A stretch of DNA of 64,000 bases from Gammaproteobacteria bacterium (GTDB taxonomy: Bacteria; Pseudomonadota; Gammaproteobacteria; Pseudomonadales; Halieaceae): assembly GCA_030433415.1 (NCBI GenBank), contig JAUIMF010000003.1, positions 1 to 64,000 of the forward strand, given 5' to 3'. The notes under the pieces were generated by a model that saw only the letters and a list, made by a program, of their open reading frames with translations, did not search any database and was not told the DNA's origin. A program made the position numbers and the translations under genes. Positions 1 through 35,892 of this stretch are shown piece by piece (the stretch's first letter is position 1; each line of letters begins with the position of its first letter).

Positions 1-1
1 C

Positions 2-1351: not shown

Positions 1352-1383
1352 CGCCAGACGTATCCCTTACCCGTTCCACGACT

Positions 1384-1415: not shown

Positions 1416-1593
1416 CACCCGGGCAGCAAAGTCGTGTGTCTGTTTCGTGGGTCACCCCGAGCAGCACCGCCATGCAGCGCGGACATTGACTGCGCGACAC
1501 CAGCACGTATGCTAGCCGGCTTGATGAATCGCAGTCACGGCTGTGCCATGGGTCTCTCTGGGTAGCCGTATCCGCATGAGGCTGGGGAAAGAG

Positions 1594-2085: not shown

Positions 2086-2122
2086 GCAGGTCGCTGCCAT
2101 CGTCGTTCTCTACAAATCGGAG

Positions 2123-3025: not shown

Positions 3026-3027
3026 CG

Positions 3028-5645: not shown

Positions 5646-5647
5646 GG

Positions 5648-7450: not shown

Positions 7451-7510
7451 ACGACTTTAGCAAAGACACTAGCAACGACTTTAGCAAAGACATTAGCAAC
7501 GATTTTAGCT
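7451..7510. repeat. 12-bp tandem repeat, five units, upstream of the HAD gene
   Basis: Five head-to-tail 12-mers: ACGACTTTAGCA, AAGACACTAGCA, ACGACTTTAGCA, AAGACATTAGCA, ACGATTTTAGCT. Units 1 and 3 are identical and units 2 and 4 differ by one base, so the array is also a 24-bp repeat. It ends 24 bases before the HAD start codon. The frame shared with the HAD gene is open through it, but there is no ATG, GTG or TTG in that frame between the TAA at 7388 and 7535, so it is probably untranslated leader or a regulator-binding array. Confidence 0.85.
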
Positions 7511-7534
7511 ACGACAACCGCGGGAAGCCCTATC

Positions 7535-8203: not shown

Positions 8204-8221
8204 GCGAACGGTGTCGACTGC

Positions 8222-9502: not shown

Positions 9503-9538
9503 TGTCTGGCCCAGCCGACACCCGGGTGCATTGACCTC

Positions 9539-11113: not shown

Positions 11114-11159
11114 GCAGAGTTGTCGTGCCTTGCGGTATGAGCGGGCGGCCGTTCACGTC

Positions 11160-12110: not shown

Positions 12111-12111
12111 G

Positions 12112-12924: not shown

Positions 12925-12942
12925 GAGCGGGAACTGCGCGAC

Positions 12943-14772: not shown

Positions 14773-14784
14773 CGACGCGGCGGG

Positions 14785-16263: not shown

Positions 16264-16333
16264 TACTGCTTCCTCGCTATCTGAAACAATGCGGTGCGGG
16301 CGGCACCGGAAGAATAAATTTGTGCCAGCTTCG

Positions 16334-17494: not shown

Positions 17495-18864
17495 GCTTTT
17501 TCCTCCTGGCGCGTTGTCATCGCCAGCGGTTTCACCGGTGCCTGGCCACGCAGCCTCCCGACCTGCTCCAGGGCATCGCCGCGAACTTCGGCCAGTACCT
17601 CCGCCGCCGCAGCGCCGCAGAAGCGCCCCTGGCAGCGGCCCATGCCCACCCGGACCAGTGCTTTGGCGCGATTCACTTCCGGTGCGCCCTGGGACGCGGC
17701 GGCTTCACGCAATTGCCCTGCGGTGATGGCCTCACAGCGACACAGCAGCACGTCGTCCGCCACCGCGCGTGCCAGTTCGGCCGGCCAGGGAAACGCAGTG
17801 GCGAGGCCCCGGCGGAAAGTTTCCATGCGGCGCTGGCGCCGCCGCAGCTTGTCGATCCTTGATGTCGAAACGTCCAATCCAAGATCGGACAGTGCGGCCA
17901 ATGCCGCCAGTTCGCCCGAGATTTCCGCTGCGTCGGCACCGAGAACGCGAGCACCATCGCCGGCGAGGTAGACCCCGGATGTGCTGCCGCGACCATCGGC
18001 ATCGACCTGAGGCACCCACTGCCCCAGATCTGGATCAAATGTAAAGTCGCAGCGAGCCAGGTCCGCCAATTGCGTCTCGCTGCGTAAATGAAATCCCATG
18101 CCCACCGCGTCGCAGGCGAGCTGTTCCTCTTGACCCCTGCCGGAGCGGAAACGGACCGCAGCGACACCATCGTCGCCGTCGATGGCAAGGGGAGTTACCG
18201 AGGTATGCACGGGAACACCCCGCAGGAGCAGCTGTGCCCGGTAGTAGATACCTTTGGCCAGCAGCGTGGGGCGCGCAGCCATGGGTCCCAATGCGTTGAG
18301 CTGACCGAGAAAGGGTGACGTGTCCAGTACCGCAGCCACATCCACACCTGCCGCGGCGTACTGGTAGCTGATGAGGTAGAGGAGGGGCCCGGTGCCGAGA
18401 AAAACGACTCTGCGCCCAATGGCGCAGGCCTGGGCTTTGAGGGCTATCTGCGCAGCCCCGAGACTGTAGCAGCCGGCCATCGTCCAGCCCCGGACCGGTA
18501 GCAAGCGATCCGTCGCACCGGTCGCCAGGATGAGCGCATCGAAGGGCAGGGCTTCGGCGACTTCACCCTGGACACAGTGCAGTACACCGGGGGACACATT
18601 CCAGGCCAGCGTATTCGGCCGGTAGTCGAGGTGGGGAACAAGGTCATCAAAGGTGCAGTGGATGGCTTTGGCCTTCCCCGCTTCAAAACCATAGAGCGCC
18701 TTGTATGGCCGTGTAAACTGCGCCGGCTGACGGCGGTAAATCTGCCCGCCGCTGGTGCCGCTCTCATCAATGACGGTTGGACGGACGCCGGCCTCGACAC
18801 AGGCCTGTGCCGCCCGCACACCCGCGGGGCCCGCGCCAACGATGACTACCCGCAATTCGGCCAC
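17491..18864 (-). CDS. FAD/NAD(P)-binding oxidoreductase with BFD-like [2Fe-2S] domain, HcnB/OoxA-like
   Basis: 457 residues. The N terminus has LRVVIVGAGPAGVRAAQACVE, then SGGQIYRR, and a second nucleotide site around VVFLGTGPLLYLISYQYAAAG. The C-terminal domain holds four cysteines, CRC and later CQGRFC, the [2Fe-2S] pattern of BFD-like domains fused to this family. The GTG start has GGAGG four bases upstream and lies 19 bases inside the preceding small gene; longer frames are not needed. It is the electron-transfer flavoprotein partner of the HcnC-like catalytic subunit. HcnB of hydrogen cyanide synthase, opine oxidase A and hydroxyproline dehydrogenase alpha share this architecture; the sequence alone does not tell which substrate is used. 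Confidence 0.88.
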   Translation of the reverse strand: MAELRVVIVGAGPAGVRAAQACVEAGVRPTVIDESGTSGGQIYRRQPAQFTRPYKALYGFEAGKAKAIHCTFDDLVPHLDYRPNTLAWNVSPGVLHCVQGEVAEALPFDALILATGATDRLLPVRGWTMAGCYSLGAAQIALKAQACAIGRRVVFLGTGPLLYLISYQYAAAGVDVAAVLDTSPFLGQLNALGPMAARPTLLAKGIYYRAQLLLRGVPVHTSVTPLAIDGDDGVAAVRFRSGRGQEEQLACDAVGMGFHLRSETQLADLARCDFTFDPDLGQWVPQVDADGRGSTSGVYLAGDGARVLGADAAEISGELAALAALSDLGLDVSTSRIDKLRRRQRRMETFRRGLATAFPWPAELARAVADDVLLCRCEAITAGQLREAAASQGAPEVNRAKALVRVGMGRCQGRFCGAAAAEVLAEVRGDALEQVGRLRGQAPVKPLAMTTRQEEKA

Positions 18865-19157
18865 GCATCCTCCGTTGGCGCCTGCGTGAGAACCTGCATC
18901 CCGGATATCACTTCTGTGGTGCAGGCACGCAAGCGCTCGCCCTCGGGGGTCCACATCCAGCAGTCCTGGCAGGCGCCCATCAGGCAGAATCCGGCGCGCG
19001 CGCCATCGCCAAATTCCGATTGACGCAGTGTCGATACGTGACTCAATACCGCCACGAGCAGCGTGTCACCCTGCATTGCGCTGTACGAACGACCGTCGAT
19101 CACGATCGTGACCGCAGGCCGATGCTGCTCGGCCATCCTGACGAAACGGCCTGACAT
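18846..19157 (-). CDS. Small [2Fe-2S] ferredoxin-like subunit, HcnA-like
   Basis: 103 residues. It shows the plant-type ferredoxin arrangement CLMGACQDC followed by a fourth cysteine in RACTT, plus the beta-grasp lead-in VTIVIDGRSYSAMQGDTLLVAVL. This size and motif match HcnA and the gamma subunit of hydroxyproline/opine dehydrogenases, where the protein holds one cluster between the two flavoproteins. AGGAG lies eight bases before ATG. It is first in an A-B-C-aldehyde dehydrogenase operon on the minus strand, with a 19-base overlap with the next gene. Confidence 0.87.
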   Translation of the reverse strand: MSGRFVRMAEQHRPAVTIVIDGRSYSAMQGDTLLVAVLSHVSTLRQSEFGDGARAGFCLMGACQDCWMWTPEGERLRACTTEVISGMQVLTQAPTEDAWPNCG

Positions 19158-19280
19158 GGGTTGCGCTCCTGTCGGTAAGGGTGTCGGGGTATCGGGTGAT
19201 GATTATAGGCTAGCCGATGCAGCATCAATTCCCTAATGCCTCGGGCCCTTCGATACAAAAATCCAAAAGATGCGCAGAAA

Positions 19281-19297
19281 TTGGCAGGATATTGGCT
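19281..19297 (+). promoter_or_regulatory. Candidate sigma-54 (-24/-12) promoter for the M20 amidohydrolase operon
   Basis: TTGGCAGGATATTGGCT has the invariant GG and GC exactly ten bases apart (GG at 19283-19284, GC at 19295-19296) and matches the consensus TTGGCACG-N4-TTGCW at all but two specified positions. Transcription would start near 19308, about 43 bases before the GTG at 19351. No activator site was identified. It lies in the 193-base gap between the divergent HcnABC-like and amidohydrolase operons. Confidence 0.42.
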
Positions 19298-19350
19298 GCT
19301 GTTTCGCGCTAGTCTGACTCTTTACACTTTCGCGCTCACAGCTTACCGGG

Positions 19351-20529
19351 GTGCTCCCGGGGGAACAGGAATTGGCTAACGCAAGCCTGGACATTGACGA
19401 CCTGGTGCCGGACCTCGTGGCGATTCGACGCGATATTCACGCTCATCCGGAACTTGCCTACAAGGAACATCGCACGGCGGGCCTCGTGGCCGAGGCGTTG
19501 CGCGAACTGGGCCTGCCGGTGCAGGAAAACATCGGTGGTACCGGCGTGGTTGCCACGCTCAAGCGTGGCCGCTCAGCGCGTAGCATCGGCCTGCGTGCCG
19601 ACATGGATGCGCTGCCCATCCGTGAGCAAACCGGCCTGCCGTACGCAAGCCGCCACGAGGGTGTCTTTCACGGCTGTGGTCACGACGGACATGTCGCCAT
19701 GCTGTTGGGCGCCGCGCGACACCTGTGCCGCGACGGCGGTATCGATGGCAGCGTGCACTTTATCTTTCAGCCAGCGGAAGAAGGTGAGGGAGGCGCGAAG
19801 GCCATGATCGATGACGGCCTCTTCGAACGGTTTCCCTGTGATCGGGTGTTTGCGCTGCACAATTGGCCCAGCCTGCCGTTGGGTACGGTGTCGACGCGGC
19901 CGGGCCCGATTATGGCCGCCGCAGACAAGTTTTCCATCACCGTAGAGGGACGCGGCGGCCACGCAGCCATGCCGCATAGCACGCCGGACGCGATACTCGC
20001 CGCCAGCGATCTCGTCACCCAGCTCAACACGATAGTTTCACGGCGGATTCCGCCCACCGGGACGGCCGTGCTCTCGGTTACCCGTATTGAGGGAGGCAGT
20101 TCCCACAACGTGCTGCCTGCACAGGTGCGACTGATTGGGACCGTACGCACCTTCGACCCGAAGGTGCAGGACACCATCGAGGCCGCCCTGCACCAGATCG
20201 TCGATGGCGTTGCCCGCTCCAGTGGCACCCGGATCACGGCCCAGTACGATCGCTACTATCCCGCCACGGTCAATCACCCCGGCGCTGCGGAGGAGGCCCT
20301 CGCGGCAGCAGCGCAGTTGGCGGATACGGAACGCGCCGCAGAGCCGGCGTTTACATCCGAGGATTTCGGTTTCATGTTGCAGGTCTGCGAGGGCGCTTAC
20401 ATCTGGCTTGGCCAGGGTGGTGCGGCGGAGGAGATTCCGCTGCATCACCCCGGTTACGATTTCAATGATGAGGTGCTGGCTACCGGGATCAGGCTGCACG
20501 TTGCGCTAGCGCGACGTCACCTGGGCTGA
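19351..20529 (+). CDS. M20 family metallo-amidohydrolase (hippurate hydrolase/N-acyl amino acid amidohydrolase-like)
   Basis: 392 residues, peptidase M20D. Metal-binding and catalytic features: HAHPELAYKEHRTA near the N terminus, LRADMDALPI, HGCGHDGHVAM, FQPAEEGEGGA with the catalytic Glu pair, HNWP, the dimerisation segment GRGGHAAMPH, and TSEDFGFM near the C terminus. These zinc enzymes release an amino acid from an N-acyl or N-carbamoyl conjugate in the cytoplasm. The GTG at 19351 gives full length; a TTG at 19372, with AGGAA just before it, would drop seven residues and is also possible. It is 34 bases before the next flavoprotein and probably co-transcribed from the sigma-54-like promoter. 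Confidence 0.9.
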   Translation: MLPGEQELANASLDIDDLVPDLVAIRRDIHAHPELAYKEHRTAGLVAEALRELGLPVQENIGGTGVVATLKRGRSARSIGLRADMDALPIREQTGLPYASRHEGVFHGCGHDGHVAMLLGAARHLCRDGGIDGSVHFIFQPAEEGEGGAKAMIDDGLFERFPCDRVFALHNWPSLPLGTVSTRPGPIMAAADKFSITVEGRGGHAAMPHSTPDAILAASDLVTQLNTIVSRRIPPTGTAVLSVTRIEGGSSHNVLPAQVRLIGTVRTFDPKVQDTIEAALHQIVDGVARSSGTRITAQYDRYYPATVNHPGAAEEALAAAAQLADTERAAEPAFTSEDFGFMLQVCEGAYIWLGQGGAAEEIPLHHPGYDFNDEVLATGIRLHVALARRHLG

Positions 20530-20563
20530 ACTGCAATCGCTGGCGAGTATTAGGAGTATCACG

Positions 20564-21874
20564 ATGCAGGTGACGGACCTCGCTGACAAGAATGCGCCCT
20601 ACTGGTGGGACGATGCCCCGCCGAACGTACAGCCCGAGCAGGCGATCACCGGAAAGGTGGATGTCGTGGTGGTGGGTGCGGGCTATGCCGGGCTGGCGGC
20701 GGGCATGGCGCTCGCGCGGGCAGGGCGCAGCGTAATTGCCTTTGACGCCATGGATCCGGGCGAAGGTGCCTCCACGCGCAATGGCGGTATCACCAGTGGC
20801 AATATTCGACCGACGTTTGCTGCCATCGCCAAACGCTTTGGCGAGGACAAGGCCGTTGCCATCGAGGCGGAGGGAAAGCTTGCCCGCGAGTTTCTTGGCG
20901 AATTTATTCGCAGCGAGGAGCTGGCCTGCGACTATCAGCAGACTGGCCTGTTCGTAGGCGCTATCGGCACTAAACAGTACGAGAGTATGGCGCGCGGAGC
21001 GGACAGCCTCGTCAAGCGCCTGGGTATCGACGCCTACGCCGTACCACAGGCAGAGCAACGACAGTATGCGGGTACCGATTTCTATCGGGGTGGTACGGTG
21101 CGCATGGACATCGGTGGGTTACACCCGGCGAAGTTTCACAGCGAGCTTCTACGCGTGGCAGTTGCGGCAGGCTTGGTCGTGCATGCCCGCACGCCCGTTG
21201 AGTCAATTCGACGCGACCATGACTCGTTTTCCGTTGCAACGTCGAGGGGAGCGGTAACGGCGCGCCAGGTGCTGGTATGTACTAACGGCTACACCGACGG
21301 TGCCACGCCATTCCTGCGCCGGCGCCTGGTGCCGGTGCGAAGCCGCATGATCGCCACCGAGGAGCTACCAGCGGCGCTGATGGCTCAGCTTCTGCCGCGG
21401 GGCATGATGATGGGAGAGGGGCTCAAGCTGGGCTACTACTATCGACCCTGCCCCGAGGGCAAACGCATCCTGCTCGGCGGGCGTGACGGCTCGTTCAAAG
21501 GTGATCCGGTGCGCCCGATCGTGGCACTCAAAAAAGGGCTGGTGCAGCGGTTTCCCGAGCTCCAAGGTACCCGACTTAGTCACACGTGGTTTGGCAACGT
21601 TGCCATGAACCGTGATCTTTTGCCGCGTATGTTCGAGCGCGATGGTGTGCTCTATGCAACAGGGTTCTGCGGTTCCGGTACCGTATGGGCGCCCTGGATT
21701 GGTACGCGCGCAGCCCACAAGCTGCTTGGGGACGAGAAACTGGGGAGTTCCGCCTTCGATTTCGCGCCACCTGCATCGGTACCACTTTATAACGGCAGGC
21801 CCTGGTTCATGCCGGCGGTCATCGAGGGCTATAGATTGCAGGACATCGTCGCCATGCGGCGTAGCGGCCGCTGA
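20564..21874 (+). CDS. FAD-dependent amine oxidoreductase of the DAO family (PuuB-like), second copy
   Basis: 436 residues. It has the PYWWDDAPP start typical of gamma-glutamylputrescine oxidase relatives, FAD site VDVVVVGAGYAGLAAGMALA, flavin loop GASTRNGGITSGN, and a C-terminal GFCGSGTVWAPWIG. AGGAG eight bases before ATG makes the start firm. It shares the fold with the proteins at 8222-9502 and 16334-17494 but is clearly diverged from both, so these are three distinct oxidases and not recent duplicates. Together with the amidohydrolase it could deacylate and then oxidise the released amine. Confidence 0.88.
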   Translation: MQVTDLADKNAPYWWDDAPPNVQPEQAITGKVDVVVVGAGYAGLAAGMALARAGRSVIAFDAMDPGEGASTRNGGITSGNIRPTFAAIAKRFGEDKAVAIEAEGKLAREFLGEFIRSEELACDYQQTGLFVGAIGTKQYESMARGADSLVKRLGIDAYAVPQAEQRQYAGTDFYRGGTVRMDIGGLHPAKFHSELLRVAVAAGLVVHARTPVESIRRDHDSFSVATSRGAVTARQVLVCTNGYTDGATPFLRRRLVPVRSRMIATEELPAALMAQLLPRGMMMGEGLKLGYYYRPCPEGKRILLGGRDGSFKGDPVRPIVALKKGLVQRFPELQGTRLSHTWFGNVAMNRDLLPRMFERDGVLYATGFCGSGTVWAPWIGTRAAHKLLGDEKLGSSAFDFAPPASVPLYNGRPWFMPAVIEGYRLQDIVAMRRSGR

Positions 21875-21915
21875 TGGCGGGAGAGCTGCCGTTCACCTGA
21901 AGCTGGCGTCGTCTG

Positions 21916-23079
21916 TTACCACCCGCTGATTTTCTTCCACACGCCTGTTGGCGTGCCCTGCTCAATGACGGTCATCGTGTCGTATTGCGCAGCCGTTGCG
22001 CAGGCGTGGTTGGGAAGTACGCGGAGCTGGCTTCCCAGCGGATAGGCGGAATAGTCAATACGCTCGTCAGCCGTGGCGGGGCTGATAATGCCGTGTTCCT
22101 GGTTGGCTCCGGTCATCAGCAGTGGCAGTCGGTTTCCGCGAACGTCCATCACCGCACCATAGCCGTAGTCCACGCGCTGCGAGGCTGTGCCACGATCTCG
22201 TGACAGGGCCATCCAGCCGCCGTCGGTGATGATCCAGTTCTTGCTGCGCTGGTGGCCGGTCACCGTGACCAGCACGCTGAAGGCGATATCGTCCGGCGTA
22301 CAGACACCGATATTGGCCATCACCAGGTCGAAGATGGCGTAAACGCCAGCGCGAACTTCCGTCACGCCGCCAAGATCGTCGATGGCAAATGCCGTCGGTG
22401 TGGAACCGATGGACACAATGGGGCAGGGCAGGCTGGCTTCGCGCAGGCGCTTTGCGGCCGCGACAGTCCGGTCGCGTTCCAGCCGGGCCATGGCCAGCAA
22501 TGCTTCGGCCGAGTCGCAATGGTAGCTCTCGCCGGCATGGGTCATCACGCCGCGCAGTTCGACGCCGTCCAACTCGTGAAGCAGCCGCCCGATCTCCAGG
22601 AGCGCATCGCCCTCGGGGTCTACACCGGACCGGTGTCCGTCCGTATCCAGTTCGATGATCGTTGGAAACGTGATACCCGCATTGGTGCCATAGGTTGCCA
22701 GTTGCTGGGCCATCTCCGGGGAGTCGAGGGTCACCGACAGGACACAGCCTTTCGCAATGAGGCGCCGGGCCTGGTCGAACTTGTTGGGCGAGATACCCAC
22801 GGCATAGAAAATGTCGCCAAAACCGTTGTCGAAGAAGTGTTCTGCCTCTCTCAGGGTGGAGACGGTGATTCCCCGGGTATGCCCGGCGGACTGAACTACC
22901 CGGGCGATATCGACGCACTTGTGCGTTTTGACATGAGGGCGCAGCACCCCACCGAGCATGCCCACACGCCTGGCGAGTCGCTGCGCGTTGGCCTCAAGGC
23001 GATCACGGTCCAATAGGAGTGCCGGTGTCGTGGTATTTGTCAGGCTGATTACGTTGGGTGTGTTTTCACTGTTTGTCAT
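21916..23079 (-). CDS. DSD1 family PLP enzyme (D-threonine aldolase / D-serine or 3-hydroxyaspartate dehydratase-like)
   Basis: 387 residues, fold type III PLP enzyme: an alanine-racemase-like barrel followed by a D-serine-dehydratase-like domain. The PLP lysine is Lys51 in RPHVKTHK; phosphate and ring contacts are in SIGSTPT; the C-terminal metal site is the His and Cys of PNHACATAAQ. It cleaves or dehydrates a D-beta-hydroxy amino acid. I start at the ATG with GGAGG five bases upstream, not the longer frame. It is a single gene converging with the flavoprotein at its left, and a good partner for a pathway handling D- or hydroxy-amino acids. Which of the related reactions it performs is open. 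Confidence 0.88.
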   Translation of the reverse strand: MTNSENTPNVISLTNTTTPALLLDRDRLEANAQRLARRVGMLGGVLRPHVKTHKCVDIARVVQSAGHTRGITVSTLREAEHFFDNGFGDIFYAVGISPNKFDQARRLIAKGCVLSVTLDSPEMAQQLATYGTNAGITFPTIIELDTDGHRSGVDPEGDALLEIGRLLHELDGVELRGVMTHAGESYHCDSAEALLAMARLERDRTVAAAKRLREASLPCPIVSIGSTPTAFAIDDLGGVTEVRAGVYAIFDLVMANIGVCTPDDIAFSVLVTVTGHQRSKNWIITDGGWMALSRDRGTASQRVDYGYGAVMDVRGNRLPLLMTGANQEHGIISPATADERIDYSAYPLGSQLRVLPNHACATAAQYDTMTVIEQGTPTGVWKKISGW

Positions 23080-23141
23080 GCAGCCTCCGAGGCCAGCGGC
23101 CACCGCTCCGTTGTACACAGCGCCAAAGTAGAAGCATCAAC

Positions 23142-23170
23142 AAAAAAGCCCCGCGAGAGGTTCGCGGGGC
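23142..23170 (-). terminator. Rho-independent terminator of the DUF4198/HupE operon
   Basis: Read on the minus strand: GCCCCGCGA, loop ACCTC, TCGCGGGGC, then six T. The 9-bp stem is perfect and begins 20 bases after the DUF4198 gene stop. Confidence 0.92.
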
Positions 23171-23189: not shown

Positions 23190-23972
23190 TTACTCGGGGA
23201 GATGGTCAAGCACAAACGACAGCGTCGCAAAGTGCTCTATCTGCCTGTACACCTTTGGCGTATCGGCTGGTCCATCATAGGTCGCGCCGATCACGTTCAG
23301 ACCCTGGTTGCGTACGGGAAAGTGCACCGTGCCGTCTTCACCGGTGATCCAGGGCTGCTGATCGGGATCGTTGACCCAGTCGCGAACCACACGTGCACCG
23401 GAGATGGGTTTGCCGTTGTACAGTACTTGCACTTTGACGATATCGCCGGCCTGGCGCGGCATTGCAGTGCCATGCAATTCGTAGGATCCGTTCTTCCAGC
23501 CCGGGGCGCCGTCGACGGGAATAATCTGCAGGGTCTGCGTGGGGAGTTGTGGGATGGCACGAAGTGGTCCCCGCAGGTGCACCGCGTACTTCATTGTTCG
23601 CTCTGAGATCACCGCATTGGGAACCTCATCGTAGCCTTTGGCGTGCCACTTGCCGTCCGGAGTCTTGGACCAGACGCCGTTGTCCATGACGCCCGACACG
23701 GCCAGTGGATAATCGTCGCCACCGACCAGCACCATGGGGCCGGCCTTGATGAGCTCCGCATCGACCTTGTTCCAGTCCTCGTCGTAACCGGTGAGGTTGA
23801 CCATCTTGTCGAAACGCTTGACCGTATCCAGGTCGTCGGCGCCCACGCCGTAAATCAGGGCGAGGGCGTCGGAGCGCTCAGCAAACCATATACCGTGACT
23901 GCTGACCTGCCCGGCGCAGAGAACGCCAGCGACGGCGGCGGTGGTGGTGAGGATTTTCTGCAGCGTGTTCAT
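23190..23972 (-). CDS. DUF4198 domain periplasmic protein, metal-transport associated
   Basis: 260 residues with a signal peptide (KILTTTAAVAGVLCAG, probable cut in QVSS before HGIWFAE). DUF4198 proteins are secreted beta-rich proteins found beside nickel, cobalt or copper transport and TonB genes; the closing part here (VKVQVLYNGKPISGARV, then DGTVHFPVRNQGLNVIGATY) is the typical carboxypeptidase-regulatory-like fold. The ATG has AGGAG five bases upstream. It is last of four genes on the minus strand ending at a strong terminator. The role, probably capturing or presenting metal in the periplasm, is inferred from neighbours and family distribution. Confidence 0.85.
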   Translation of the reverse strand: MNTLQKILTTTAAVAGVLCAGQVSSHGIWFAERSDALALIYGVGADDLDTVKRFDKMVNLTGYDEDWNKVDAELIKAGPMVLVGGDDYPLAVSGVMDNGVWSKTPDGKWHAKGYDEVPNAVISERTMKYAVHLRGPLRAIPQLPTQTLQIIPVDGAPGWKNGSYELHGTAMPRQAGDIVKVQVLYNGKPISGARVVRDWVNDPDQQPWITGEDGTVHFPVRNQGLNVIGATYDGPADTPKVYRQIEHFATLSFVLDHLPE

Positions 23973-24060
23973 GAACTCTCCTGTTGCGTAGTCGTGTTGT
24001 GAAGGTCGTGCGATCAGGTGCGTGTATCGTCCGGCTGGATCACGAGTCGTTTCGATGCGA

Positions 24061-24648
24061 CTATTTTTCGTGGATTCCCTGGTAGAAGCCGCTGACTGCT
24101 ACCGTTACCGTGATGTCTTCTTCGGTCATGTTCTGCCAGTACCAGCCGTGAGTGCCGTCGAAGCGGGCCAGCAACATACCCTGGCCGGCTACCTGTTCCT
24201 GTTCTTTCCAGTAGCTGGTGAATTCGTCTTTTCCCGGATTGGGCGGTTCGCCGTGCATATCCGTATACAGGGCCGAGCCATCGGTCTTCCAGTCAAACAC
24301 CAGGGCCTGCCCGGCCAGCATGTCGGCCTTCAGTTCGATGCCCTCATAGGCGGGAACGACAACGGTCACCGTGTCGTTGCTGATCGTGGTCGATGCGCGC
24401 GCCAGGGCCGGAAGATCGAGGCCGGATTCAATATCAACGGGCACCAGCTCGGCGGCCACTGCGCTGCTGGCAGCATTCAACTTGTCCAGTCCTAGCGCGT
24501 CGCCGACGCCCAATGGATCCACACCGTATTCGGCGGGGAGAACAAAAGTCACCAGCAGCAAGATGGCGACGACCAGGGAGATCAGCGTCGCTCGAACAAG
24601 TTCCGCCTTGCCAGGCAGCGGTTGTTCAACGGTTACGGTGGTTGTCAC
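24061..24648 (-). CDS. Single-span membrane-anchored periplasmic protein of unknown function
   Basis: 195 residues. One membrane segment near residues 19-40 (ATLISLVVAILLLVTFVLPAE) is followed by a mainly polar extracytoplasmic domain with many acidic residues, a WKTDGSALYTDMHGEP stretch, and a C-terminal WYWQNMTEEDITVTVAVSGFY. I chose GTG at 24648 because GAGGA sits seven bases upstream and it follows the HupE stop by ten bases; a TTG at 24675 would overlap HupE. Its fixed place between HupE-like and DUF4198 genes suggests a shared metal-linked role. I do not recognise a named family with certainty. Confidence 0.8.
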   Translation of the reverse strand: MTTTVTVEQPLPGKAELVRATLISLVVAILLLVTFVLPAEYGVDPLGVGDALGLDKLNAASSAVAAELVPVDIESGLDLPALARASTTISNDTVTVVVPAYEGIELKADMLAGQALVFDWKTDGSALYTDMHGEPPNPGKDEFTSYWKEQEQVAGQGMLLARFDGTHGWYWQNMTEEDITVTVAVSGFYQGIHEK

Positions 24649-24658
24649 GATTCTGTCC

Positions 24659-25384
24659 TCAGATACCTGGATCAACGAAATAGCCGGTGAGCTGGTAACC
24701 CATTAGCATGAATCCCAGTGTCATAAGCACCGCGTTGGACGCGAAGGCGTAGCGCTGGAATGCCGGGGCGCGGCGCCAGAAGCCCATCAGTATGAGAATG
24801 GCCGAGAGGGCAACAAGCTGGCCCATTTCCACGCCGATGTTGAAGGCGAGGATATTGGGCACGAGGCCGTCTTCGGACAGCGTGAAGTCCTGCAACTTCG
24901 TCGCTAGGCCAAAACCATGGAAAAAGCCGAAAATCAGTACCGCGGCCTTGGTATTTGGCTGGAAACCAAACAAGCGCTGGAATCCGCCGAGGTTGTCAAA
25001 GCCCTTGTAAACCACCGACAGACCGATAATTGCGTCGACGAGATAGGGGCTGACCTGCGTGTCGTTGAGCACCCCCCACAGCAGGGTCACGCTGTGCCCG
25101 ATGGCGAAGAGGCTGACGTAGATGCCGACATCTTTCATCCGGTAAAGGAAGAAAATGACGCCAACAAGGAACAGCAGGTGGTCGTAGCCGGTCACCATGT
25201 GTTTGGCGCCGAGGTAGACAAAGGGAATGAACTGGATGCCGCGAGCGCCTTCTATAAACGCCGAGTCACCTTCCGCGACCCCATGCGCAAGCAGCGAGCC
25301 GCTGGCGAGCATGCCGAGTAGCCCAAGCAGGCACGACATCGAGTGTTGCAGGACGCGGACCCTGGCCGATTGAAATGGATGCAT
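24659..25384 (-). CDS. HupE/UreJ-like membrane protein
   Basis: 241 residues. After a signal-like segment ending SLLAHG, it has about six membrane helices and the HupE/UreJ signature KHMVTGYDHLLFL, whose histidines and aspartate are thought to bind a metal such as nickel. Further conserved pieces are FAIGHSVTLLWG and FGFFHGFGLA. HupE and UreJ are nickel permeases, but this subgroup also occurs beside copper genes. A GTG precedes the ATG by one codon; GGGAA favours the ATG. Flanked by a His-rich secreted protein and the anchored protein, it is the likely transport component of this operon. Confidence 0.87.
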   Translation of the reverse strand: MHPFQSARVRVLQHSMSCLLGLLGMLASGSLLAHGVAEGDSAFIEGARGIQFIPFVYLGAKHMVTGYDHLLFLVGVIFFLYRMKDVGIYVSLFAIGHSVTLLWGVLNDTQVSPYLVDAIIGLSVVYKGFDNLGGFQRLFGFQPNTKAAVLIFGFFHGFGLATKLQDFTLSEDGLVPNILAFNIGVEMGQLVALSAILILMGFWRRAPAFQRYAFASNAVLMTLGFMLMGYQLTGYFVDPGI

Positions 25385-25408
25385 CACGAGATTCCCGGCG
25401 CGCCGCCG

Positions 25409-25798
25409 TTACGATTCGATATCGAACTTGCCGGCGATCTTCGAGTAACCGTCGGCCTTGGTGATGATGGCCAGCACTTTCGCACCGGGCTCCAGCGTCA
25501 CTCCTTCGGCCTTCAGACCACTGCCAGCAATCGGGGTCAGCGGGTACTCGTTCTTGCCTTCGGCCGTTTCAACCTTGAGCTTGCCTCCCATGCCAGCGGT
25601 GTCCCAGGGTTCATCGTCGAGGATGTAGATCAAAACCAGCCCGTCACCCTTCACAAGTTCCAGGGAGACATCCCCCGTGACCTTGACGATGCCGCCATGC
25701 TGCGGTTCCGTGATGCCGTGCGCGTGTACCTGCAATGCCGAGAAGGCGGGCAGGACAGCGATGATGATCGTGGCAACGATTTTCACAGTGATTGACAT
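25409..25798 (-). CDS. Small secreted His-rich protein, probable periplasmic metal-binding protein
   Basis: 129 residues. Signal peptide VKIVATIIIAVLPAFSALQVHA, after which the mature protein begins HGITEPQHGGIVK. The rest is a small beta-rich domain. The HGG...GDVSLELV pattern resembles the start of the CusB/CzcB-type adaptor encoded at 31510. AGGAA lies four bases before ATG. It is first in the four-gene minus-strand operon and has a near-perfect palindrome about 50 bases upstream of its start. A metal chaperone or sensor role is inferred; the family is not named here. Confidence 0.82.
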   Translation of the reverse strand: MSITVKIVATIIIAVLPAFSALQVHAHGITEPQHGGIVKVTGDVSLELVKGDGLVLIYILDDEPWDTAGMGGKLKVETAEGKNEYPLTPIAGSGLKAEGVTLEPGAKVLAIITKADGYSKIAGKFDIES

Positions 25799-25847
25799 GT
25801 TTCCTGGTCTCGACGCTTGCTTGGCATTCGATTAGAGCATGCCAGAT

Positions 25848-25867
25848 AAATTGATGCGCATTAATTT
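25848..25867. promoter_or_regulatory. 20-bp inverted repeat, candidate operator of the HupE operon
   Basis: AAATTGATGCGCATTAATTT is a palindrome with nine of ten base pairs matched around the centre ATGCGCAT. It lies 50 bases upstream of the first gene of the minus-strand operon, in an AT-rich patch that contrasts with its GC-rich surroundings. It does not match a Fur or NikR box that I can recall, but the position suits a metal-responsive repressor. Confidence 0.45.
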
Positions 25868-26041
25868 CTCGAACGCGCTGGCATAAGCTGTTGAAAACTG
25901 CAAGTCCAAAAGCAATTCTTGCCGTGCTCGTGCAGCTCCTACCAAGCGTTGGTCGCTGCTTGTGCACGCATAGGCATTGTTTGCTACTGAATGCTGCTGT
26001 CCATGAGCAGCGCCAGAAGTCCGGGGCAGGAAACCAATGGT

Positions 26042-26944
26042 TCAGGTATCCAGTGGCCCAACTGCCGTTGTAAAAACCGCCGTAAGTGCAAGCACCGCGA
26101 ACATCAGGATCAGCTCCAGTGACAGGGAGCGACGAAACCTGGCGCGCCCACCCGCCTCCATCAGGAGAGGGACTGTACGCCATTTGTGCAGAGCCGCGAT
26201 GGCGAACAGCAGCGCGACCAGCGACAACTTGGCAATGACGGCGGCGGCATAGGCGCTCTCGATAACTCCCGAGGGGGCGAACATCAGGGTGTACAGCAAC
26301 GCTCCGCCAGCCAACACCATTAAGAGCAGCGGGCCCGTTGCCACCAGCCCGAAGCGATGCAGTACCCGTTGCAGAGCGGTGTTATCGAGGGAGTCAGATG
26401 CTCGCCACAGCGGATACAACGCTCCGGCCCACCAGAGCGCCATCAGCACGTGCACGGTCACCGCAGCACCCCCGATCAGGCCATGCTCGGTGCTGTGTCC
26501 CTGCAGGCTGAATGCGAGGGCCAGGAGCGTAAGCGCGGCCATATAGCACAGGCCCAGCACGGGGCGTTGCCAACGGCCATCCGGCAACCGTCCGCGGGGA
26601 CATGCCGCGAGCACGATCGTGGTAAGTGTGAAACCAGCGAGCTGGTGTTGTAGCACGTTTCCTACGGGAGATTCCCAGAGAATCTGCATCAGTGGTGGGT
26701 CGAACGCGCCTGCCCACCCCATGCCCGCGAATTCCCCGACGCGGACGAAGAAGTACGCGCCACTGACGAACATCCCGAGTATGCACAGGGAGAAGATGCC
26801 ACGACGCCCCGGGACGGCCTCGTTGGCGACGTGTTTCCCGGCGCCGGCGACAAGAAACAGGGCGAAGCTACCGCCGATCGCTGCCGCCGTCGCAAGATAG
26901 ACTGAGAGCTTCAGGGCTATTCCTGCGAGCAGCCAGGGGGTCAT
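26042..26944 (-). CDS. copD: Copper resistance/transport membrane protein CopD family
   Basis: 300 residues with about eight membrane helices; the last half is the CopD domain (HVLMALWWAGALYPLW, and LSLVALLFAIAALHKWR). Histidines and tryptophans in the helices, such as HGLIGGAAVTVHVL, are the likely copper-path residues. Its ATG overlaps the CopC stop (ATGA), the standard CopC-CopD pairing in which CopC hands periplasmic copper to CopD at the inner membrane. Whether this pair imports copper or aids tolerance cannot be told; bacteria with only CopCD usually use it for uptake. Confidence 0.9.
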   Translation of the reverse strand: MTPWLLAGIALKLSVYLATAAAIGGSFALFLVAGAGKHVANEAVPGRRGIFSLCILGMFVSGAYFFVRVGEFAGMGWAGAFDPPLMQILWESPVGNVLQHQLAGFTLTTIVLAACPRGRLPDGRWQRPVLGLCYMAALTLLALAFSLQGHSTEHGLIGGAAVTVHVLMALWWAGALYPLWRASDSLDNTALQRVLHRFGLVATGPLLLMVLAGGALLYTLMFAPSGVIESAYAAAVIAKLSLVALLFAIAALHKWRTVPLLMEAGGRARFRRSLSLELILMFAVLALTAVFTTAVGPLDT

Positions 26945-27309
26945 CGCTCGACGTCGGTCCCGACAGTGAAATCAAAACTTCCGGTCATCTTGTGGCTGTC
27001 ACCACCCATGACCACCCAGTCCACGCGATAACCATCGGCGCCGAGCGGGGGCAGGGCAATCGTGAACTGTTGGGACGGTACCAAATCGCGGGACTTTTCA
27101 AGCTGAATCGGCGTTCCGCCGTCGCTGGTCAAGCGCAAATCAATCAGTCGAACGTCCGCGCCGAACAACAGTTCGATGGTCGCAGGGCTGACCTGCTCGT
27201 GTGCTCCACTGGTCGGTTTGGACCTGACCAAAGCGGTATGCGCCTGGGCCGTCGAAGTAGAAAGAATTGCGATCGCCAACGAAAGACCAGAAACCAATAT
27301 TCGCAGCAT
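26941..27309 (-). CDS. copC: Periplasmic copper-binding protein CopC
   Basis: 122 residues. Signal peptide ending STAQA, then HTALVRSKPTSGAHEQVSPATIELLF, the CopC fold with an N-terminal histidine for Cu(II). A second histidine lies in GGDSHKMTGSFDF near the C terminus, as in the Cu(II) histidine-brace site. No methionine-rich Cu(I) loop is visible, so it looks like the single-site Cu(II) class. It is the first gene of the copC-copD pair. Confidence 0.92.
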   Translation of the reverse strand: MLRILVSGLSLAIAILSTSTAQAHTALVRSKPTSGAHEQVSPATIELLFGADVRLIDLRLTSDGGTPIQLEKSRDLVPSQQFTIALPPLGADGYRVDWVVMGGDSHKMTGSFDFTVGTDVER

Positions 27310-27719: not shown

Positions 27720-28901
27720 ATGAATGTTACTGCAAGTCCCTATCCGGGAGTCGCTACGGCTTCTTCAGAAGCCGTTACGAAGTCGCGCATCGCCTCCATC
27801 GACATGATGCGCGGGTTGGTGATTTTGCTGATGGCGGTAGACCACGTCAGAGAAAGGTACTTTTACCATCTGAACGTATCGGACCCGATGGATCTCGACA
27901 CCACCTCTCCCGCACTGTTCTTTACGCGGATGACCGCGCATCTCTGCGCGCCGACTTTTGTGTTTCTTACCGGCCTGTCTGCATGGCTTTATGCGCACCC
28001 GGCGCGGGGACAGCGTTCCCCGAGTGGCTTTCTTTTCAAGCGTGGGCTGTTCCTGGTGCTTATCGAAGCCACTCTCGTGAATTTTTCCTGGATGGGTAAC
28101 TTCGAAACCGTGTGGCTGCAGGTCATCTGGGCGATCGGCATCAGCATGATCGCACTGTCGGTACTGGTCAAACTACCGTTCTGGGCCATTGCTGCACTGG
28201 GATTCCTGATCGTCTTCGGGCACAACCTACTGTCGCCCATCAGTTTCGCACCGGGAGAAGCTGGCTACACGTTGTGGGCGATCCTGCACGATAGAGGGTT
28301 TGTTTATGAAGGGGCTTTCCGCATAAAGGCCAGTTACCCGGTGTTGCCGTGGATCGGTGTCATTCTTCTTGGCTACTGCGCCGGACCGCTGTATGCGCGT
28401 ACCGTCGATATGCAGATGCGTCGCAAGCTGCTGCTCGGCCTGGGATTGGGATGCTGGGCATTACTGCTGGTACTGCGCGGATTGAATATCTACGGCGAAG
28501 TCCTGCCCTGGCAATCGCAGGAAAGCCTGCTCCTGACCGTTATGGATTTCGTGAATTTCACCAAGTATCCGCCATCGCTCAATTTCGTGTTGCTGACCGT
28601 TGGTGCAGCGCTGCTTCTGCTGGCGTGGTTTGAGACGCTGAACAACTGGTTCATGGATGTGCTCGAAGTGTTCGGCTCTGCACCGATGTTCATCTATATC
28701 GTGCACCTTTACGTGTTGCTGATCAGCTATCGCATCGTGCTTGCCACGGTGGGTCCCAACGAAGGTGAGCTTTTCGCGCTCGGCGCAGTGTGGCAGATCT
28801 GGGCCATTACCGTCTTGTTGGTCTGGGCGCTTTATTATCCGACGCGCGCCTTTGCCCGCTTCAAGCACAGTACAGACATGGCATGGGTCAAGTATTTCTG
28901 A
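27720..28901 (+). CDS. Membrane acyltransferase-like protein, DUF1624/heparan-alpha-glucosaminide N-acetyltransferase-like
   Basis: 393 residues with about nine to ten membrane helices. The N-terminal RIASIDMMRGLVILLMAVDHVRERYF, with the conserved RG and DH, is the signature of the DUF1624/HGSNAT catalytic-domain family, which moves an acetyl group across the membrane. HLCAPTFVFLTGLSAWLY follows as the second conserved block. GGGAG eight bases before ATG gives a firm start. A GNAT gene starts 12 bases after its stop, so the two are likely one unit. Substrate unknown. Confidence 0.82.
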   Translation: MNVTASPYPGVATASSEAVTKSRIASIDMMRGLVILLMAVDHVRERYFYHLNVSDPMDLDTTSPALFFTRMTAHLCAPTFVFLTGLSAWLYAHPARGQRSPSGFLFKRGLFLVLIEATLVNFSWMGNFETVWLQVIWAIGISMIALSVLVKLPFWAIAALGFLIVFGHNLLSPISFAPGEAGYTLWAILHDRGFVYEGAFRIKASYPVLPWIGVILLGYCAGPLYARTVDMQMRRKLLLGLGLGCWALLLVLRGLNIYGEVLPWQSQESLLLTVMDFVNFTKYPPSLNFVLLTVGAALLLLAWFETLNNWFMDVLEVFGSAPMFIYIVHLYVLLISYRIVLATVGPNEGELFALGAVWQIWAITVLLVWALYYPTRAFARFKHSTDMAWVKYF

Positions 28902-28912
28902 AGGATCACACG

Positions 28913-29773
28913 GTGAGCTTCGAGGCTGAAAATGCCCGTCTGAGGCCCATGCATGCGGCGGACATCAAGCACGCCGTCGCGTTGACACAGGCAGAGGGAT
29001 GGCCGCATCGGGCCGAGGACTGGGCATTCCACTTGCGCCATGGTGCTGGTTGGGTACTGGAAGGCGCAGAGGGCGCGCTTTTGGGTACGTTGCTGTGCTG
29101 GGAATACGGGCGGGATGTTGCGACCCTGGGCCTGATCGTTGTGGATCGTCGCTGTCAGGGGCGTGGCCTGGGTAGTCGCCTGATGCAACACGCTGTCGAC
29201 GTGCTGGGCGGCCGAACCCTGCGGCTGGTGGCCACCGAGGCGGGCTACTCTTTGTACCGACGCTACGGGTTCGAGCCTGTTGCCCCCGTTCGGCAGTGTC
29301 AGGGGGTGTCAAAGGACGTTACGCCGGTGTCCCCTGATCCGGGTGACTTGCTTCGCCCCCTCGCGCCAGAGGACCTTGCCCAGGTCTGCGAAATAGATGC
29401 GAATGCGACAGGCATGGACCGTTCGGAGCTCTTGCGTGACCTGTGCTTTGAGGGCGAGGGATTGGTGCTGGAGACATCTGGCCAACTCGTTGGTGTTGGA
29501 ATTGCGCGCCCAGCCGGCAGAGGGGTGGTTGTCGGGCCCTTGATTGCACGAGAACAGCGCCAGGCGCAACTTCTGCTCTCGCATTTGCTGGCGGGACGTA
29601 AGGATTTCTGTCGTATCGATGTGCCGGGTAACGCCACCGCACTTGTCGACTGGCTGCAGGAGGTCGGGCTTCCGGTAATGGACAAGGTGACTGCCATGCA
29701 GTTTGGTACAATGCCCAGCCATGAAACACAGGCGTTCAACAACTTTGCGCTGGTTTCGCAGGCTCTTGGCTAA
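28913..29773 (+). CDS. GNAT family N-acetyltransferase with two GNAT-like halves
   Basis: 286 residues. The first half has the acetyl-CoA site RCQGRGLGSRLMQHAV and a YRRYGFEP end typical of a GNAT domain. The second half (LRPLAPEDLAQVCEIDANATG onwards) resembles the C-terminal GNAT-like domain found after many bacterial GNAT enzymes. The GTG start is preceded by AAGGA at seven bases; longer frames lie inside the upstream gene. The 3' end overlaps the next small gene by about 53 bases. Substrate unknown. Confidence 0.85.
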   Translation: MSFEAENARLRPMHAADIKHAVALTQAEGWPHRAEDWAFHLRHGAGWVLEGAEGALLGTLLCWEYGRDVATLGLIVVDRRCQGRGLGSRLMQHAVDVLGGRTLRLVATEAGYSLYRRYGFEPVAPVRQCQGVSKDVTPVSPDPGDLLRPLAPEDLAQVCEIDANATGMDRSELLRDLCFEGEGLVLETSGQLVGVGIARPAGRGVVVGPLIAREQRQAQLLLSHLLAGRKDFCRIDVPGNATALVDWLQEVGLPVMDKVTAMQFGTMPSHETQAFNNFALVSQALG

Positions 29774-30131: not shown

Positions 30132-30220
30132 CTGAATTCCAGGAATCTGTGGTGCGTTGCTGAGGCGACGCCCCTGGTCACTCATCCGTTGTGCGCCGAG
30201 AGGCGCGGGGGTGCTCATCT

Positions 30221-31501
30221 ATGTTGGGAATGCTTATCCGTCGCAGGCAGGGGTGGCGGTTGATCGTCGCTGCCGGCCTGATTGCCGCCGCTCACTGCGC
30301 GCATGCTGCCGGGAGCGCCATCCTGGAGCTGGAACTCGCTGTCCAGCGAACGCTGGCAAATAATCCGGGCCTGAAGTCCCTTGGCTACCAGATAGAGGAG
30401 CAACGAGGGGCGGTCACGCAGGCCCAGGTTGCTCCGGCGCTGGAGTTCGGGTTGATGGTCGAAAACGCGCTCGGGAGCGGCGATTTCAATGCGATCGACG
30501 CGGCCGAGACGACACTCAACCTCGGTTGGATACTGGAGCGTGGCAAACGCCAGTACTACATTGATGAGGCCAGGGCCGGTACATCCATGTTGGAGGCCCA
30601 GTCCGGCATCGCGCGGCTGGACGCCGTAGCTTATACCGCACGCCTTTTCTTGAACAATCTGGAAGCACAGGAGCGTCTTACGCTGGCTCGGGAGGCGGTC
30701 GACACCGCTGAAAAAACCGTGAGTGGAATTGCGGAGCGGGTGCATGCCGGTCGCACGCCGCCCGGGGATCTGTCGAGGGCCGAGACCGAACTTGCCAGCA
30801 TACGCTTGGCCGCTGAAGACCTGGAACACTCACTGGCCACTGCTCGCTACGAGTTGTCGGCGCAATGGGGCGAACTTCACCCGGATTTCCAGCGCGTTGC
30901 CGGCGACTGGCAAAACCTCCCGGCCCCGGCAGACTTTGAAGTGTTGATGGCACAGGTAGAACGCTCGCCCACGTTGACCGCCTACCTGACGCAGCGACGT
31001 CTGGAAGAGGCGAAGCTGCGGGTTGCCCAGGCGCAGGCAAAACCGGATTGGCGAATTGACGCCAGTATCCGGCGTTTTGAAGAAACCAACGATCACGCGT
31101 TCGTGGCCAGCATTATCATGCCGCTGACCTCCGCAGATCGTAATCGTGGGTCGGTGCAGCAGGCCAGGGCACGTCTCGCCCGGGTCGACGCGGAGCGCGC
31201 TGCCAGCAAATTGCAGATCGAAACGCAGCTCTTCTCCATTTACCAGGCCCTCCAGCACAGCCTGCACCGGGCCGAGTCGCTTCGTGACGAGGTTCTGCCG
31301 CTGGCAGAGGAAGCGTTAACCCAGACCCGTCGGGGTTACGAGGCCGGTCGCTACAGCTATTACGAGTTACAGCAACTTCAGAACGAGCGGCTGGCCCATA
31401 GCGTCAGCCTGCTGGAAGCATCCATCAACGCCCGTCGGTATATCGTGGAAATTGAGCGGTTGACCGGCGCCATGTTGCCGGTGGTTCAACCAACACCTTG
31501 A
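30221..31501 (+). CDS. czcC: Outer-membrane efflux protein, CzcC/TolC family
   Basis: 426 residues with signal peptide (WRLIVAAGLIAAAHCAHA). Two outer-membrane-efflux repeats made of long helices are visible: LELELAVQRTLANNPGLKSLGYQIEEQRG at the start and a second AQARARLARVDAERAASKLQIETQLF helix pair. ATG at 30221 follows a GGGGG stretch nine bases upstream; ATG at 30230 is an alternative. It forms the outer-membrane channel of the tripartite efflux pump with the next two genes. The symbol follows the operon context; the metal is not proven. Confidence 0.87.
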   Translation: MLGMLIRRRQGWRLIVAAGLIAAAHCAHAAGSAILELELAVQRTLANNPGLKSLGYQIEEQRGAVTQAQVAPALEFGLMVENALGSGDFNAIDAAETTLNLGWILERGKRQYYIDEARAGTSMLEAQSGIARLDAVAYTARLFLNNLEAQERLTLAREAVDTAEKTVSGIAERVHAGRTPPGDLSRAETELASIRLAAEDLEHSLATARYELSAQWGELHPDFQRVAGDWQNLPAPADFEVLMAQVERSPTLTAYLTQRRLEEAKLRVAQAQAKPDWRIDASIRRFEETNDHAFVASIIMPLTSADRNRGSVQQARARLARVDAERAASKLQIETQLFSIYQALQHSLHRAESLRDEVLPLAEEALTQTRRGYEAGRYSYYELQQLQNERLAHSVSLLEASINARRYIVEIERLTGAMLPVVQPTP

Positions 31502-31509
31502 GGAATGTA

Positions 31510-32751
31510 ATGAAATACCTTTATACGACTGGATTACTCACCGCAATGCTGGCTTTGGCGGGGTGCGGTGTTGAGGGCAATCCTGCCGGAGCGCAGGGTG
31601 GCCACGACGAAGCAGTGGAAGAGCAGGTTGCCATAGGCCCGCACGACGGGCGACTCCTGGTTGAGGGTGACTTCGCGCTGGAACTTGCCATCTTCGAAAC
31701 CGGTGTACCGCCGGAGTTTCGCGCCTGGGCTACCGATGAGGGTGAGATCGTTCCCCCTGAAGCGGTGAAGCTCGAGGTGACCCTGACACGCCTGGGCGAT
31801 GTCACTGACAAGATCGACTTTCGCGTTCAGGAGGACTTTTTACGCGGCGACAGCGTCATCTACGAACCGCATTCCTTCGTGGTAGATGTAGCTGCCCACT
31901 ATGGTGGCGCGAGCTATCGATGGCAGTACGACAGTATCGAGGGCCGCACGCACATAGCTCCCGATGTCGCAGCGGCCTTCGGCGTCGAGACAGAGATCGC
32001 CGGACCTCGGACACTCCACAACACCGTGTCCAGCTATGGCCGAATCCAGGTCGATCCACAGCGTATTCGGAGCCTCGCGGCACGCTATCCCGGCACCATC
32101 GAGTCGGTTGCCGTTGTGGTCGGTGATGAGGTTCAGCAAGGCCAATCCCTGGCGACCGTGCGCAGCAATGACAGCCTGACCACCTATGCGATTGCGGCGC
32201 CGATCAATGGGGTCGTCACGAAACGGTCAGGCAACCCAGGGGAGCAAACACCCAATGGCGGGATCTTCGAACTGATGGATGCGACATCGCTGTGGGTCGA
32301 GCTGGCTATATTCCCGACGCATATCGGCGAGGTTAAAAAGGGGGCGCCGGTGGTCATTGCCACCCAGGACGGCACCGTCAGACGCAGCGGTGTGATCGAT
32401 TACATCGAGCCTGTGACGCGCTCCGATCAGTCGGTGACAGCGCGAGTCACCCTGGATAACAGCGATGGTGCGCTATTCCCGGGCATGTTTGTCCGCGGTG
32501 AAATCGAAGTAGATAGCTTCGATGTAGCGCTGGCGGTCAAGCGTATTGGACTGCAGAGCTTCCGCGATTTCACGGTCGTTTACGTACAGATCGGTGACGA
32601 ATTCGAAGTTCGAATGCTTGAGCTCGGGCGCGAAGACAGCGAGTGGGTGGAAGTGCTCGAGGGTCTCGAGCCGGGCGCGCGCTACGTCACCACGAACAGC
32701 TATCTCGTCAAAGCCGATATCGAAAAGTCCGGCGCTTCACACGATCACTGA
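31510..32751 (+). CDS. czcB: RND efflux periplasmic adaptor lipoprotein, CzcB/CusB type
   Basis: 413 residues. A lipoprotein signal (MKYLYTTGLLTAMLALAGC, lipid Cys19) is followed by an N-terminal domain GPHDGRLLVEGDFALELAIFE seen in heavy-metal adaptors, then a lipoyl-like/barrel-sandwich part (RYPGTIESVAVVVGDEVQQGQSLATV) and beta-barrel and membrane-proximal domains. AGGAA four bases before ATG. It links the inner-membrane pump to the outer-membrane channel and in relatives binds and hands over metal. Confidence 0.92.
   Translation: MKYLYTTGLLTAMLALAGCGVEGNPAGAQGGHDEAVEEQVAIGPHDGRLLVEGDFALELAIFETGVPPEFRAWATDEGEIVPPEAVKLEVTLTRLGDVTDKIDFRVQEDFLRGDSVIYEPHSFVVDVAAHYGGASYRWQYDSIEGRTHIAPDVAAAFGVETEIAGPRTLHNTVSSYGRIQVDPQRIRSLAARYPGTIESVAVVVGDEVQQGQSLATVRSNDSLTTYAIAAPINGVVTKRSGNPGEQTPNGGIFELMDATSLWVELAIFPTHIGEVKKGAPVVIATQDGTVRRSGVIDYIEPVTRSDQSVTARVTLDNSDGALFPGMFVRGEIEVDSFDVALAVKRIGLQSFRDFTVVYVQIGDEFEVRMLELGREDSEWVEVLEGLEPGARYVTTNSYLVKADIEKSGASHDH

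Positions 32752-35892
<3,141 letters not shown>

Follow-up and report, generated by a model that had tools for sequence, protein, structure and literature searches.

Four neighbouring exported proteins with predicted N-terminal histidines and their possible role in a catabolic island of a Halieaceae bacterium

The first 64,000 nucleotides of contig JAUIMF010000003.1 (positions 1 to 64,000, the whole stretch analyzed and hereafter the window), from a gammaproteobacterium of the Halieaceae, contain six minus-strand genes at 23190-27309 in the order copC-copD-small-hupE-anchor-DUF4198. Four of the six encoded proteins (CopC, a small exported protein, a short HupE permease and a DUF4198 protein) appear to start with histidine (His1) after predicted signal-peptide cleavage, and CopD and a 204-amino-acid "anchor" protein are interspersed among them. 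The more important result is a conserved metal module with His1 proteins, together with a HupE-anchor device, and the place of both in a catabolic island. We tentatively read the four His1 proteins, the anchor and CopD as the metal arm of this island, which would import and degrade an amine or amino-acid chelator. His1 as a mark of metal proteins is already known; the gene arrangement is new. The features of the run are the following.

26941..27309, minus strand: CopC; predicted mature start His24, codon from 27240; PF04234, 63.6 bits (cut-off 23.3)
26042..26944, minus strand: CopD membrane protein; PF05425, 53.9 bits (cut-off 32.1)
25409..25798, minus strand: small exported protein of 129 amino acids, unnamed family; predicted mature start His27, codon from 25720
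24659..25387, minus strand: short HupE_UreJ_2 permease; predicted mature start His35, codon from 25285; PF13795, 186.3 bits (cut-off 24.5)
24061..24675, minus strand: "transmembrane anchor protein" of 204 amino acids, recognized by alignment and by fusion of the same domain to HupE
23190..23972, minus strand: DUF4198 protein; predicted mature start His26, codon from 23897; PF10670, 45 bits (cut-off 34)
23148..23170, minus strand: terminator-like hairpin and T run after the DUF4198 gene; 9 pairs, 8 of them G-C, tail TTTTTTGTTG

The residues before the histidine are signal-like ends in all four proteins: AQA in CopC, VHA in the small protein, LLA in HupE and VSS in DUF4198. When cleavage sites were ranked with a home-made signal-peptide score, the top cut fell directly before the histidine in CopC, the small protein and DUF4198, whereas in HupE it fell four residues upstream, yet the relatives of HupE back histidine at +1. 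The claim of the preliminary description that four neighbours carry histidine after the end of their signal peptides is thereby confirmed at the level of prediction, a cut before the histidine being plausible in each protein and the residue being kept in relatives. The hairpin is a consensus match only (7 such matches in the region against 4.2 expected), and a promoter scan of the region gave 2 matches against 1.7 expected.

The same six-gene order occurs in two gammaproteobacterial metagenome-assembled genomes (MAGs), and a DUF4198-small-HupE-anchor module is found at 13 loci in alpha-, beta- and gammaproteobacteria: the window, the two MAGs, Massilia, Indioceanicola, one Sphingobium and seven Novosphingobium. 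The module comes with CopC and CopD in the window, in the two MAGs and in Massilia; in Novosphingobium US6-1 the distance between them is about 18 kb. The conservation of the module and the HupE-anchor fusions (8 of 29 loci, see below) make a relay from secreted proteins to membrane carriers, as first suggested for this run, plausible from the sequences. Among the open-licence papers listed, no prior report of the module or the island was found.

Clustering of such ends was gauged in 587 kb of the same genome (window included), where a deliberately lax rule classed 155 of 525 called genes as signal-peptide-like. Outside the four, 9 of 151 of these proteins have any AxA-type site followed by histidine, and several of the nine resemble membrane proteins. 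At least four histidine-bearing genes among five consecutive signal-like genes appeared in 116 of the 20,000 label shuffles, a statistic adopted after the stricter four of four had failed (observed 3, since CopD too scored as signal-like). The stronger argument seems to be the conservation of His1 inside each family (42 of 42 HupE, 30 of 30 DUF4198 and 13 of 13 module-type small proteins), and on these grounds chance alone was set aside. A coincidence in which some of the four carry a histidine without a metal role would be favored by the nine background proteins, by the shuffles that equal the clustering and by aspartate at +1 in many relatives of the small protein, but in the face of this conservation it is scarcely credible. 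Elsewhere in the same genome (L070:334-828, on G000:C35), a DUF6702 protein, which belongs to another family of the signal-strapping paper, has histidine after an AxA-type site.

In HupE, alanine at -1 and histidine at +1 are present in all 42 sequences compared (35 homologue rows, the window and six plasmid loci) and in three of three further ones. From His1 to the end of the GA[KT]HM motif there are 31 residues, or 28 in nine divergent sequences, and an HX5DH motif stands 27 residues beyond His1; no Ang domain (a beta-sandwich) lies between His1 and the permease, where only these 27 residues precede HX5DH. Loci were obtained for 30 of 37 matches in 33 genomes, own included, leaving 29 others (L084-L112): 20 have a separate anchor gene, eight (L105-L112, from several families of the phylum) have the periplasmic domain of the anchor fused to the HupE C-terminus, and one has neither. 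The fused domain matches the anchor family with a probability of 99.9% (E 9.6e-36, 35% identity), and its profile recovers 39 of 40 anchor-bearing open reading frames (the 8 fused included) and 0 of 800 shuffled ones. Given these fusions, HupE and the anchor are very likely one device. The anchor protein, with one membrane helix and a periplasmic domain that bears conserved DxHG and FDGxHGWxW motifs, offers a further candidate metal site in that domain.

The Ang-1 and Ang-2 anglerases (PMC12537917) share with the window the N-terminal histidine after a signal peptide and the HupE_UreJ_2 permease, whereas here HupE is without the Ang domain and has an anchor partner, a separate small His1 protein and a catabolic island. 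HupE relatives are nickel importers or permeases (as cited in PMC12537917). In Sphingobium ba1, a HupE/UreJ-type gene likewise belongs to a metal cluster with resistance-nodulation-division (RND) genes (NreB/CzcCBA/HupE) and is strongly induced by 10 mM nickel; unlike the present case, the available part of that report mentions no DUF4198 or small protein and no catabolic island (PMC5557971). Two HupE matches (L085 and L095) have one in-frame stop each and may be pseudogenes or sequencing errors. Plasmid records with the anchor protein number 382, including 147 from Klebsiella; its gene is annotated in them as "transmembrane anchor protein" or hypothetical, and the HupE-anchor pair is mobile on plasmids of clinical bacteria. 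On a Sphingobium plasmid, HupE and the anchor are followed by a small DUF6488 protein whose start reads AHGD (L005:8629-8952), possibly another His1 protein.

The small protein matched no Pfam or NCBIfam family. Its predicted mature form starts with HGITEPQHGG, in which His1 and His8 are candidate metal residues. A four-sequence profile finds the family in 31 genomes (the present one counted) out of 398 from the phylum, and a CzcA-like gene adjoins the family gene in 30 of 30 distant loci (29 of 29 fetched non-own loci and Polaromonas); all eight CzcA-like neighbours tested score best with TIGR00914 (CusA/CzcA), seven of them being fragments below cut-off. Among these 30 RND-linked relatives, the +1 residue is, by our reading, histidine in 12 (one with threonine at -1), aspartate in 13 and another residue in 5. 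In the wider family His1 is thus not invariant, while the HGG motif almost is. The AlphaFold2 model (pLDDT 95.1) is an eight-stranded sandwich, and the closest fold to it is that of CrdA (9ll4; Z 10.3, rmsd 2.6, 92 residues aligned), followed by FetP/P19/FtrA proteins (Z 8.2-9.6). Foldseek gave no match at E <= 0.001 (CrdA, 2.9e-3), and a sequence comparison with the PDB returned nothing relevant, CrdA not being among the matches. With CrdA of the H. pylori CrdAB-CzcBA system the protein shares the predicted fold and the family's place beside CzcA-like genes, but identity is 8%, the Met-rich copper site of CrdA has no counterpart motif in the small protein, and the window gene is not adjacent to CzcBA, unlike in the CrdA arrangement. 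Because CrdA, as described in the accessible part of PMC9182242, has no histidine and a Met-rich site, the small protein is said to fold like CrdA and not to be CrdA. A stand-alone N-terminal domain of CzcB was rejected as an identity (hhalign probability 18.9, with only the HGG/HDG region aligned). This unnamed, CrdA-like, CusA/CzcA-linked family is new here.

In CopC, His1, Asp104 and His106 (precursor numbers for the latter two) are invariant in four of four aligned sequences, and His1 is also present in Novosphingobium US6-1. The CopC of one MAG (L004) has proline at -1, a poor cleavage site, and the window CopC scores under the NCBIfam CopC equivalog cut-off. The family match and the His1/Asp/His ligands agree with the CopC/CopD copper proteins, from which the window differs by the six-gene run with HupE, anchor and DUF4198. 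In a 2025 study, 79% of DUF4198 proteins had an N-terminal histidine, and IsDUF4198 bound nickel through His1 and His18 (dissociation constant 18 nM, structure 9GCB) (PMC12537917). His1 was present in 30 of 30 DUF4198 sequences examined here, all of which fitted the search pattern (the partial relatives L123 and L127 were set aside, and L124 is the same gene as L128). The predicted model of the window protein (pLDDT 88.6) matches 9GCB with Z 22.4 over 208 residues, so that the DUF4198 fold and the N-terminal histidine are held in common, but the second nickel ligand is absent, valine being aligned to His18, and His85 is added. Val18 and His85 co-occur in 14 of 14 module-type sequences, which are those of the 13 loci with small protein, HupE and anchor and that of L135, where a stretch of 8.7 kb revealed no module partners. 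In three solo relatives position 18 is leucine or glutamate and position 85 leucine or phenylalanine; among 13 canonical relatives His18 occurs in 8 and His85 in none, and three of the five without His18 have a histidine one position later. The DUF4198 fold is also that of Zcp (PDB 9mhi-9mhn, with zinc, copper or cobalt bound; Z 17.1-17.6).

The preliminary description had gone on to propose that the common mature end reflects a shared way of binding copper or nickel. Metal binding by His1 is well grounded by analogy, since N-terminal histidine binding is published for CopC, for DUF4198 and for the Ang domains, which are fused to HupE/UreJ-2, bind copper and nickel, and have DUF4198 genes commonly near their Ang-1 members (PMC12537917). 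A shared mode of binding is not supported, because the ligand sites differ between CopC, DUF4198, HupE and the small protein. Overall, the proposal is only partly supported. The preliminary description had mentioned neither the anchor gene nor the catabolic island.

The module lies inside a conserved catabolic island that spans positions 1-29773 of the window. Its parts, and the efflux genes beyond it, are the following.

1..23118, strand unspecified: main part of the island, common to Massilia (L140), Novosphingobium (L141, L142) and MAG contig G039; it contains a TonB receptor (cut by the window edge), Lrp, GhrA, succinate-semialdehyde dehydrogenase (SSADH), tartrate dehydrogenase, class III aminotransferase, HAD, flavin oxidase, ATP-binding cassette (ABC) importer, aldehyde dehydrogenase (ALDH), flavin/2Fe-2S oxidase subunits, M20, a further flavin oxidase and a D-threonine-aldolase-like gene
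7535..8200, plus strand: HAD type II enzyme; TIGR01428 above cut-off, with PDB matches
9539..14772, plus strand: ABC importer (substrate-binding protein, two permeases, ATPase); 54-65% identity to the Massilia and Novosphingobium counterparts
27720..29773, plus strand: HGSNAT-like membrane protein and GNAT acetyltransferase, island genes
30191..35892, plus strand: CzcCBA-type RND metal efflux genes; CzcA-type TIGR00914, 1454.5 bits (cut-off 701.45)

Copies of the island occur in Massilia, in the Novosphingobium strains ES2-1 and US6-1 and on the MAG contig carrying L004, at identities of 62-70% for Lrp, 49-63% for SSADH, 62-70% for the aminotransferase and 56-69% for HAD; with both Novosphingobium strains the tartrate dehydrogenase shares 64-65% and M20 63-64%, and with Massilia ALDH and the flavin/2Fe-2S subunits share 58-63%. 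Island genes are present at 7 of 13 module loci, in three proteobacterial classes, the other six loci being covered over 8.7-12.2 kb only. Of 398 genomes of the phylum, 28 have the HAD gene (the present genome among them), and at 18 of 19 fetched non-own loci a homologue of the island flavin oxidase or binding protein adjoins it; the remaining locus, L152, has a GNAT match of 33% only. The Massilia copy has an additional copper oxidase gene, and on a plasmid of a root-nodule Phyllobacterium (L166) the island copy stands among genes for a metal P-type ATPase, a copper oxidase, an azurin-like protein and copper-binding proteins. The Paraburkholderia island plasmid carries a solo DUF4198 gene elsewhere.

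The substrate may be approached through the HAD enzyme and the importer. As a single sequence, HAD matched L-azetidine-2-carboxylate hydrolase best in the PDB (3smv, 4.6e-25), and a five-sequence profile gave (S)-2-haloacid dehalogenase 8hp5 (7e-28), 3smv (1.6e-25) and 1jud (5.6e-11), the classical enzymes ranking far below the first two. Azetidine hydrolysis yields 2-hydroxy-4-aminobutyrate, which is used via transamination with the help of an acetyltransferase (PMC8016842), a route that would fit the aminotransferase and semialdehyde dehydrogenase of the island. The HAD-type enzyme, the aminotransferase and the acetyltransferase (GNAT) are common to both systems; the island differs in its flavin oxidases, ABC importer and metal arm, and the substrate here is putative. 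The matches of M20 to DoeB2 and of the aldolase-like gene to BhcC stay below cut-off, and the ABC substrate-binding protein is of a peptide/nickel/opine-binding type. In a biased collection of plasmid records, 330 carry the HAD gene, with Rhizobium contributing 140 and Sinorhizobium 73. Nicotianamine and the mugineic acids, which have an azetidine ring, are tight ligands of Cu(II) and Ni(II). Our guess that the substrate is nicotianamine or a mugineic acid is made because of the azetidine-type match, the plasmid hosts and these properties; much of the island evidence would also fit an opine, a different amine chelator or a substrate without metal. A joint reading, in which the island takes up and degrades an azetidine plant metallophore while the His1 module is a dock that keeps its copper or nickel, a split "anglerase" of free His1 bait proteins and a HupE-anchor permease, is unlikely, and the finding of HupE in 0 of 27 other HAD-gene genomes weighs on it. 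No nicotianamine degradation genes were found among the open-licence papers listed.

In the broader form that we tentatively favor, the chelator would reach the periplasm loaded with a transition metal, copper first and nickel second, and would enter through the ABC importer to be burned by the flavin oxidases, aminotransferase and dehydrogenases. CopC (through His1/Asp/His), the small protein with its CrdA-like fold (through His1 and His8) and the altered DUF4198 (through His1 and possibly His85) might hold the released metal at their exposed N-terminal histidines; its passage across the inner membrane could fall to CopD and to HupE-anchor, which has a His1 of its own, and the nearby CzcCBA could expel any surplus. 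Support comes from the retention of His1 in each family with published metal binding of relatives (PMC12537917), from the gene order shared with the two MAGs, the module and the HupE-anchor fusions, from the CrdA fold of the small protein, its relatives beside CusA/CzcA and the Val18/His85 pattern, and from the island genes at module loci and the copper genes in the Massilia and Phyllobacterium copies. Several observations weigh against it. None of the 27 other HAD-gene genomes has this HupE (E <= 1e-30), the small protein occurring in 1 of them and a DUF4198 match in 3; island copies in Acidovorax and Paraburkholderia have no annotated metal genes within 12 kb, save a TonB siderophore receptor in Acidovorax; island genes are found at 0 of 29 HupE loci, in stretches of 2.9-3.7 kb; and the nickel induction in Sphingobium fits resistance as well as uptake. 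The metal arm of the island looks optional and variable.

Ordinary copper or nickel homeostasis or resistance genes, brought beside the island by plasmid gene traffic and acting separately from the catabolic genes, with His1 ends as independent traits of each family, are a contender nearly as strong as the reading that we tentatively favor. Metal-resistance plasmids often carry HupE-anchor but not the island (the 382 records), the island is mostly without HupE and CzcCBA is close by; against it stand the island genes at 7 of 13 module loci in three classes and the residue pattern peculiar to module-type DUF4198. Uptake of nickel or cobalt for a nickel enzyme, with DUF4198 as the nickel carrier for HupE, is improbable: it draws on the nickel affinity of IsDUF4198 and the nickel permeases among HupE relatives (PMC12537917) and on matches of the ABC binding protein to NikA-type families (below cut-off), but valine replaces the nickel ligand His18 in the window and in 13 of 13 other module-type sequences, and copper genes stand beside the module in several loci. 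Still less probable is that the small protein is a periplasmic accessory of RND efflux that passes metal to CzcCBA, as proposed for CrdA; this would suit its predicted fold, the CzcA-like neighbours of its distant relatives and CzcCBA in the window, whereas within the module the small gene adjoins HupE instead and the fetched stretches of L003, L004 and Massilia L006 contain no CzcA match.

Pseudomonas fluorescens SBW25 is reported to consume grass phytosiderophores, the genes for this being only proposed (PMC7786132). If it is true that the island degrades phytosiderophores, it would supply candidate genes and a view of how a cell handles the metal on its food. Independent of the substrate, His1 of the short HupE, the HupE-anchor fusions and Val18/His85 of DUF4198 lend themselves to direct tests of the choice between copper and nickel, and so to the question of how N-terminal histidine sites select either metal. 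Directly after czcA, at 36167-38572 on the plus strand of the window, lies a chemotaxis receptor gene with a methyl-accepting chemotaxis protein (MCP) signalling domain, a possible sensor of metal or substrate.

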